A stretch of DNA of 47,745 nt from Desulfonatronovibrio sp. (GTDB lineage Bacteria; Desulfobacterota; Desulfovibrionia; Desulfovibrionales; Desulfonatronovibrionaceae), in contig PXDF01000166.1 of NCBI GenBank assembly GCA_003566455.1, positions 1-47,745 of the forward strand, given 5' to 3'. The notes under the pieces are model-generated. The model had not been told where the DNA came from and searched no databases. It was given only the letters and a program-made list of their open reading frames with translations. Positions 17,839 through 19,684 of this stretch are shown piece after piece; the first letter of the stretch is position 1, and each line of letters begins with the position of its first letter. Both the position numbers and the translations under genes were made by a program.

Positions 17839-17859
17839 ATCTTCTCCCCCAGGATATTT

Positions 17860-17988
17860 CTGACCTCTTCCCTCTGACTGCTGACCTCTGATATCTGATG
17901 TCTGATCTCTGACTACTGACCTCTGATATCTGATGTCTGATCTCTGACTACTGACCTCTTCCCTCTGACTGCTGACCTCTGACTTCTG
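17860..17988. repeat. Short-repeat array with two perfect 35 bp copies
   Basis: Two perfect tandem copies of a 35 bp unit (17881-17915 and 17916-17950) are flanked on both sides by a 21 bp unit (17860-17880 and 17951-17971), followed by a partial copy. This gives an A-B-B-A layout. Each unit is itself built of 7-8 bp words of the form CTGATNTC / CTGACNTC. The array separates amrB from the secreted-protein gene and encodes the C-terminal residues of the latter. Confidence 0.9.
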
Positions 17989-18526
17989 GGCCTGCTCTTT
18001 GTATGGTTGCTCTGATTTTATGGGCAGGATAAGGCTCCATCACCCTGGGCTCAATCCCCATCAATGGTTCAGGCTGGGGTGCATCTATAAGTGGGGCAGG
18101 CAATGACGGGGAAGGTTTGTCCGGATCAGGTTCCCACCTTGCGCCAAGATAATCCATGAACATGACGATCACACCCTTATTTTCATGAGGAAGGGTATAA
18201 TAAATATACCCGAAAGCATCTGTACTGGTCCTGATTACAAAGTTCTTGTCCTGAAACCGGATATCACTTATCAACCTGGAACCTGAAAAATCCTCCGGTG
18301 ACAGTGTGGATTCCGATGCCCAGACATCTTCCGGCAGATCAAATGAGAGTTCTTCCCTTCCTGTTCGTTTGACCACAAATCCGGCAAGCTCATCCCTCAA
18401 TTCAAAGACAATTCTTTCATGATCTGAATGTTTTTCCCAGTAGCAGTCCATGGACTGAGCAGGTTGAACAGAGCAGAAAAATACTGTGACAATAAAGAAT
18501 ATATAAAGTCTGCATTTATGAATCAT
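17948..18526 (-). CDS. Small secreted protein of unknown function, C-terminus in repeat DNA
   Basis: The 192-residue product has a Sec signal peptide (MIHKCRLYIFFIVTVFFCS, cleaved near AQS) and a beta-rich domain of about 95 residues (ERIVFELRDELAGFVVKR, FVIRTSTDAFGYIYYTLP). A Pro-rich tail with PDPDKPSPSLPAP follows. The fold may be AMIN-like, but I cannot name the family. ATG 18526 is preferred over TTG 18541. The last dozen or so residues (GPEVRGQQSEGRGQ) are translated from the short-repeat array, so the original 3' end may have been replaced. It lies downstream of the sigma54 activator-like gene, in the same direction. Confidence 0.6.
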   Translation of the reverse strand: MIHKCRLYIFFIVTVFFCSVQPAQSMDCYWEKHSDHERIVFELRDELAGFVVKRTGREELSFDLPEDVWASESTLSPEDFSGSRLISDIRFQDKNFVIRTSTDAFGYIYYTLPHENKGVIVMFMDYLGARWEPDPDKPSPSLPAPLIDAPQPEPLMGIEPRVMEPYPAHKIRATIQRAGPEVRGQQSEGRGQ

Positions 18527-18608
18527 AATATCAATATCCAAGGTTTTTTAGGATAACAGAACACGTGTAACAGCCATAATGGAATAGATCGCAAATTTAT
18601 GTCAACAG

Positions 18609-19601
18609 TCATATCAGACTTTTCTTTTTCAACTTTTCAATAAGAGTGGTTCTTTTTATGCCGAGGATTTCAGCCGCCTGATTTTTTACACCATCACTCT
18701 TGTTTATCGCCTCCATCAGCAGATTCTCCTCGATCTTTTCCAGATATTCCTTGAGGTTCATTTTCCTGTCCCGCATATCCCTGAGTTTCGGCCATTCATA
18801 CCCTCCCGGAACAACAGGTTCCACCGGCTGTTCAATGTCGCCGGCGGACAGAATATTGTCCGGAAGGTGTTCAGCTTCAATCTCTGGGCCTTCACAAAGT
18901 ACAGCAGCCCTCTTCATAATATTCTCGAGTTCCCGGACATTTCCAGGCCATGAATAAATCATCATAAGTTTTCTGGCCTTTTGAGAAATAAATAAACTTT
19001 CTTTGCTTTTTTCGCGGAACTTTTTTAAAAAAAACTCTGCCAGCAAAAGAACATCTCCTCCTCTTGCCCTGAGGGGAGGCAGAGCTATGGGAATAACGTT
19101 CAACCTGTAAAAAAGGTCCTCCCTGAAATTGCCTTGTTCCACTTCCTTTTCCAGGTTGATGCTGGAAGACGCGATTACCCTGACATTGACCTTCTGCGGA
19201 CTGATTCCTCCCATCCTGACCAATTCCTTATCCTGAAGCAGTCTTAGTAACTTCACCTGCAGATCAGAGCCTAACAAGCCTATTCCATTGAAAAAAACAG
19301 TGCCTCCGTCTGCCAGGGCAACCCTCCCCTGCCCTGAGTTGGTGGTATTAATCAGTGCTCCTTTCTCATGGCCGAAAATCTCCGGCTCCAGAAACTCCCC
19401 AGGTATTGTTCTGCAGTTGATGGACACAAACGGCCTGCTTGCCCTGCGGCTGTTTTTGTGCAATGTCCTGGCCAGCAACTCTTTACCAGTGCCCGGCTCA
19501 CCTGTTGTCAGGACAGTTGTGTCTGTGGGCGCCACTCTGGCCAGTACCCGGAAGACATCTTGCATAACCGGACTTTGGCCTATAATACCCGATGTATCCA
19601 T
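18609..19601 (-). CDS. Sigma54 activator-like AAA+ regulator with lost GAFTGA and Walker B residues
   Basis: The 330-residue protein begins directly with the AAA+ domain (no receiver, PAS or GAF domain), as in PspF. It ends in a Fis-type helix-turn-helix (NQAAEILGIKRTTLIEKLKKK, residues 307-327). Walker A is GEPGTGKE (34-41), the Arg-finger region FREDLFYRLNV is present (159-169), and sensor II GNVRELEN is intact (220-227). The sigma54-contacting loop, normally GAFTGA, reads GALINT (81-86). Walker B, normally TLFLDE(I/V), reads TVFFNGI (101-107), so both acidic residues are gone. Sensor I is also altered. DNA binding is likely. ATP hydrolysis and sigma54 activation are doubtful. Confidence 0.85.
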   Translation of the reverse strand: MDTSGIIGQSPVMQDVFRVLARVAPTDTTVLTTGEPGTGKELLARTLHKNSRRASRPFVSINCRTIPGEFLEPEIFGHEKGALINTTNSGQGRVALADGGTVFFNGIGLLGSDLQVKLLRLLQDKELVRMGGISPQKVNVRVIASSSINLEKEVEQGNFREDLFYRLNVIPIALPPLRARGGDVLLLAEFFLKKFREKSKESLFISQKARKLMMIYSWPGNVRELENIMKRAAVLCEGPEIEAEHLPDNILSAGDIEQPVEPVVPGGYEWPKLRDMRDRKMNLKEYLEKIEENLLMEAINKSDGVKNQAAEILGIKRTTLIEKLKKKSLI

Positions 19602-19684
19602 TTACTTTTCCTTGAATTTTCTGCTCATACCTTTATTGCTCAACAGGTGTCAAAATGATGACTTAAAGTCAATAAATATTCATA

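Follow-up and report, generated by a model that had tools for sequence, protein, structure and literature searches.

A degenerate enhancer-binding protein and its neighbors

The window, by which is meant the whole 47,745-nucleotide stretch of Desulfonatronovibrio DNA that was analyzed (from genome G000), encodes on its reverse strand a 330-residue AAA+ protein with a C-terminal Fis-type helix-turn-helix (HTH). The features of this locus are as follows.

17948..18541 (-): 197-residue stub equivalent to residues 1-192 of an exported TPR protein of flagellated relatives (42% identity to the L055 protein)
18609..19601 (-): 330-residue AAA+/Fis-HTH protein, putative DVU2894-type (FlrA/FleQ-like) ortholog (open reading frame, Pfam, 14 aligned orthologs, gene tree equal to the neighbor-gene tree)
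18624..18743 (-): Fis-type HTH, residues 287-326; conserved, with purifying selection at the background level (Pfam, codon models)
19161..19169 (-): sensor I, SSS at residues 145-147; ATN in flagellated orthologs (alignment)
19284..19289 (-): Walker B acids D-E replaced by N105-G106 (alignment)
19344..19361 (-): L1 loop, GALINT at residues 81-86; GAFTHA in orthologs (alignment)
19479..19502 (-): Walker A, GEPGTGKE at residues 34-41, intact (sequence, alignment)
19648..19672 (-): conserved upstream site TTGACTTTAAGTCATCATTTTGACA with a GTCA-N6-TGAC core, putatively autoregulatory, matching the core predicted for DVU2894 orthologs (PMC4641369)

In Pfam scans the protein matches the AAA+ sigma54-interaction domain (PF00158, 1.4e-56), the AAA lid and, at its C terminus, the Fis-type HTH (PF02954, 1.7e-12). 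The frame is open over 330 codons, as the original prediction had stated, and translation and ortholog alignment bear out the three defects it had pointed to, namely the GALINT loop, the N-G pair in the Walker B box and an altered sensor I (residues 144-147 read ASSS, against AATN in orthologs). The remainder of the AAA+/HTH architecture had been described as well preserved; the Walker A motif, the Asn62 switch, the FREDLFYR arginine-finger segment and the PGNVRELEN sensor II segment are all intact. Judged as a functional bacterial enhancer-binding protein (bEBP, or EBP), the protein thus has PF00158 and the Fis HTH and lacks a tolerated L1 loop and the Walker B D-E pair. Two parts of the prediction were misleading. 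The starting loop had been taken to be GAFTGA, but the ortholog alignment gives GAFTHA as the ancestral loop of this gene family. An N-terminal domain is indeed missing, with no FleQ- or REC-like match in the Pfam scan of the window protein and no room for one before residue 6, but this is not a loss, since all family orthologs are built in the same way. The PspF row of the ortholog alignments possibly contains errors and carries no conclusion.

The family comparison covered 18 genomes, most of them fragmented assemblies. One-to-one orthologs of the window protein occur in 14 of the 18, at 55-67% identity, and the next EBPs in these genomes fall clearly below this range (only about 40-50%). 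Gene order around the regulator is kept (panK-eno-folD-memo-[TPR]-EBP-sfsA-EamA), and the phylogeny of the EBP branches in the same way as that of panK+eno+memo, so the gene has been inherited vertically; horizontal acquisition and paralogy were rejected on the basis of synteny and tree congruence. The window's genome contains no second intact copy: the next best match scores 257 bits, and a scan of the genome contigs returned distant paralogs only. Contig ends, rather than true absence, explain the missing gene in flagellated G010 and G011, and G006 has no ortholog but is an assembly only 66% complete. A 47-residue N-terminal fragment in G003 (L102, contig C130) represents a second, less degraded copy that carries the upstream site and adjoins sfsA; it may be a chimera, a contaminant or the product of a strain mixture, and G003 is perhaps a mixed assembly.

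DVU2894 of D. vulgaris has been described as a single-component, FlrA/FleQ-like EBP with a GAFTHA loop and without an N-terminal domain, predicted to be a flagellar regulator, and a yGTCA-N6-TGACr core has been predicted for its orthologs (PMC4641369). The window gene appears to correspond to DVU2894, because the GAFTHA loop of its orthologs, the lack of an N-terminal domain and the upstream GTCA-N6-TGAC all match this account; the match is to the features published there, and it also makes Desulfovibrionales the probable order of these genomes. Among solved structures, FleQ provides the AAA+ and HTH sequences closest to the window protein (E = 3e-72), and FlrA was also matched.

The sequence TTGACTTnnnGTCAnnnnTTTGACA lies upstream of every family ortholog with readable upstream sequence except that of non-flagellated G012, with 0 mismatches (one in G014). 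The main G003 copy begins at a contig edge, where the site is unreadable. The window site has 0 mismatches and is the only one at up to 3 mismatches in the window's genome; in the sister genome G012 the site is gone, yet the HTH of the regulator remains. Stringent motif matches elsewhere in G000 were discarded as possible targets, all being inside coding sequences, and an apparent conserved motif near the flagellin genes of flagellated relatives was discarded for the same reason. The TTGACA within the upstream site could be a plain promoter -35 element.

Flagellar status and the pattern of motif loss

The window's genome (96.5% complete) contains no FliG_C, flagellin or FlhA, and the same three markers are absent from G001, G002, G003, G005 and G006. 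G012 has no FliG or FlhA and a single flagellin match, on a 7.6-kb contig. FliG is present in the remaining 11 of the 18 family genomes. GAFTHA, D-E and ATN are present in each of the nine flagellated orthologs available, and within the family catalytic changes are confined to the non-flagellated genomes G000, G012, G003 and G002. The G012 protein has lost the loop and has Lys for the switch Asn and Gln for the sensor I Asn; in G003 the loop reads GASAHA and the sensor I Asn is replaced by Ser; in G002 sensor I is changed. The original prediction had not recognized this setting, in which a flagellar regulator sits in a genome lacking flagella. The comparison with orthologs supports the earlier claim that the window protein has lost sigma54 remodelling and ATP hydrolysis: with its loop, Walker B box and sensor I degraded, it would be unable to remodel sigma54-RNA polymerase, and would probably bind ATP without hydrolyzing it.

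Loss of the motor does not always follow loss of flagella: non-flagellated G005 still has an intact regulator, and FliG-negative genomes from elsewhere in the order, among them the Desulfovibrio-like G162 and G166 (each complete in a single contig), have both an intact GAFTHA protein and its site. GAFTHA, the Walker B acids and the upstream site are all retained at L149, L150, L151 and L139 (in G162, G117, G166 and G141), which come from FliG-negative genomes of another family that are 99-100% complete; sensor I is changed in the G141 regulator. These cases suggest that the regulator has a non-flagellar role in those four genomes. In four further FliG-negative genomes (G263, G178, G097 and G288; L155-L158) the best match has a GAFTGA-type loop and lower identity, and the upstream palindrome is absent from all except G263; these matches possibly belong to a different subfamily.

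Between memo and the regulator, the full-length form of the neighboring gene encodes an exported protein of about 890-960 residues with AMIN-like and TPR regions (as in L055, 9753-12413, + strand). It is present in all ten testable flagellated genomes and is lost or cut in all six testable non-flagellated ones, and its product is a candidate flagellum-linked protein. A search against solved structures gave no specific match. The stub in the window is truncated precisely where a tandem repeat occurs (17859-17988; 3.3 copies of a 35-nt unit). In flagellated G016 the TPR gene is split by an in-frame stop (L057, contig C13), which is either real or an assembly error.

A simple alternative is that the regulator is undergoing plain decay: its purpose would have gone with the flagella, and it would be drifting toward a pseudogene, with the intact HTH and frame reflecting limited time only. 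The reduction of the TPR partner to a stub fits this explanation, as does non-flagellated G001, where the regulator and the TPR gene have been cleanly deleted between memo and sfsA and a decayed site remains. Rates of change, which are elevated after flagellar loss, point in the same direction; their distribution along the gene does not.

Selection on the two halves of the protein

The nine flagellated orthologs share 179 invariant positions; 40 of these are changed in the window protein, 32 in G012 and 19 in each of G002 and G003, compared to 1-5 when flagellated genomes are scored in leave-one-out fashion. The window branch has a length of 0.53 for the EBP and 0.11 for the neighbor genes, against 0.10 and 0.19 for flagellated G008. 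A sequencing error at 19270-19360, which the original prediction had allowed for, is very unlikely, because the changes consist of many separate substitutions, all in frame; the independent changes in G012 were a further ground for rejecting it. Genome-wide relaxation of selection in G000 was also rejected, as eno, panK and memo are unrelaxed in the window lineage.

Selection was analyzed with a codon model written for this purpose, in which every region and lineage has its own omega. In a four-region version, whose boundaries were picked after seeing where the changes fell, omega in the window lineage rises from 0.036 to 0.217 for residues 1-149 (p = 5e-8), from 0.079 to 0.154 for residues 150-230 (p = 0.07) and from 0.181 to 0.221 for the linker (p = 0.6). 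The corresponding values for the HTH are 0.063 and 0.067 (p = 0.88), a constraint like that in flagellated relatives. The neutral-decay test used boundaries fixed beforehand. Whole-gene neutral decay in each non-flagellated lineage was rejected in favor of an unrelaxed HTH (2dlnL = 26, 3 df, p = 1e-5); the rejection for the window lineage alone is modest (p = 0.012). Between the window and G012 there are 12 synonymous and 0 nonsynonymous codon differences in the HTH core (residues 305-328), versus 50 synonymous and 70 nonsynonymous in the AAA core (residues 1-172; Fisher p = 6e-5). Synonymous sites are saturated on some branches, for example that of G005.

Uniform neutral decay is thus rejected, because the HTH is unrelaxed in three lineages, and the frame of the window gene has stayed intact. 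Plain decay is rather unlikely. The original prediction had listed recent inactivation among its options and had proposed ortholog alignment and dN/dS as checks. When these were run, flagellated orthologs were found to keep the catalytic residues and dN/dS was found to be raised, the combination it had named as the mark of recent decay, but the rise is restricted to the ATPase half.

The same distribution bears on two other possibilities. A dominant-negative anti-activator, another of the options in the original prediction, in which ATPase-dead subunits enter the hexamers of other EBPs and poison them, could draw on the intact Walker A, arginine-finger and sensor II segments and on the roughly 24 other EBPs and the sigma54 of this genome. 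However, the nearest of those EBPs is only 51% identical, and selection is relaxed on residues 1-149, which form part of the ring core, an unexpected result if ring assembly matters; this explanation is very improbable. It also seems most doubtful that the protein activates a sigma70 promoter through ATP binding without hydrolysis, by analogy with Rhodobacter NtrC. Walker A is intact and precedents have been reviewed (PMC10274813, PMC3162934), but the motif scan of G000 found no target promoter besides the protein's own site, and the relaxed residues 1-149 include Walker A.

A proposed origin, and comparison with known regulators

On balance we favor the view that the window protein once served as a sigma54 activator of flagellar genes, was deprived of its motor after flagella had disappeared, and now persists through DNA binding, probably as an autorepressor. 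Its ancestor would have been a vertically inherited, DVU2894-type (FlrA/FleQ-like) flagellar EBP. Flagella were presumably lost in the window's lineage, after which the loop that contacts sigma54, the catalytic Walker B residues and sensor I would have degraded; purifying selection continued to act on the HTH. Most likely the protein still binds its own palindrome (19648-19672) as an oligomer, blocking transcription there; it would thus act as an ATPase-independent autorepressor, and might have other targets as well. The earlier suggestion of a DNA-binding repressor therefore stands with respect to retained DNA binding, to which the unchanged selection on the HTH and the intact upstream site both point, and we infer repression in addition.

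A broader proposal is put forward tentatively. Once flagella were gone, the sigma54 activator that had served them may have become, repeatedly and independently, a regulator that binds DNA but has no ATPase. At least two lineages (G000/G012 and G002/G003) would be involved, each with the motor half freed from selection and the HTH fully constrained. Such cases would amount to a natural, repeated experiment in which an EBP sheds its ATPase motor and keeps its DNA-binding part, and would provide a plausible route of origin for GAFTGA-less regulators such as VpsR or TyrR. In genome annotation, it would be wrong to list such genes among the sigma54 activators.

The window protein resembles DVU2894 of D. 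vulgaris Hildenborough (PMC4641369) in its FlrA/FleQ-like character, the lack of an N-terminal domain, the upstream GTCA-N6-TGAC and the position of the loop motif; it differs in its GALINT loop, in lacking the Walker B acids and the sensor I Asn, and in residing in a genome without flagella. FleQ of Pseudomonas and FlrA of Vibrio share the flagellar context as master regulators, and FleQ additionally represses genes via DNA binding. However, FleQ possesses GAFTGA, the Walker B acids and a REC-like domain at its N terminus, all three of which are missing from the window protein. When expressed in non-flagellated Lysobacter, Xanthomonas FleQ inhibits an antifungal biosynthesis pathway, and the HTH is required (PMC9927559). 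VpsR, TyrR and the NtrC proteins of Rhodobacter and Caulobacter are loop-less bEBPs reported to activate or repress sigma70 promoters (PMC10274813, PMC3162934). The window protein is like them in having the bEBP fold without a functional sigma54 loop, but they belong to other subfamilies and are established active regulators, whereas the window protein has also lost Walker B and owes its proposed function to sequence comparison.
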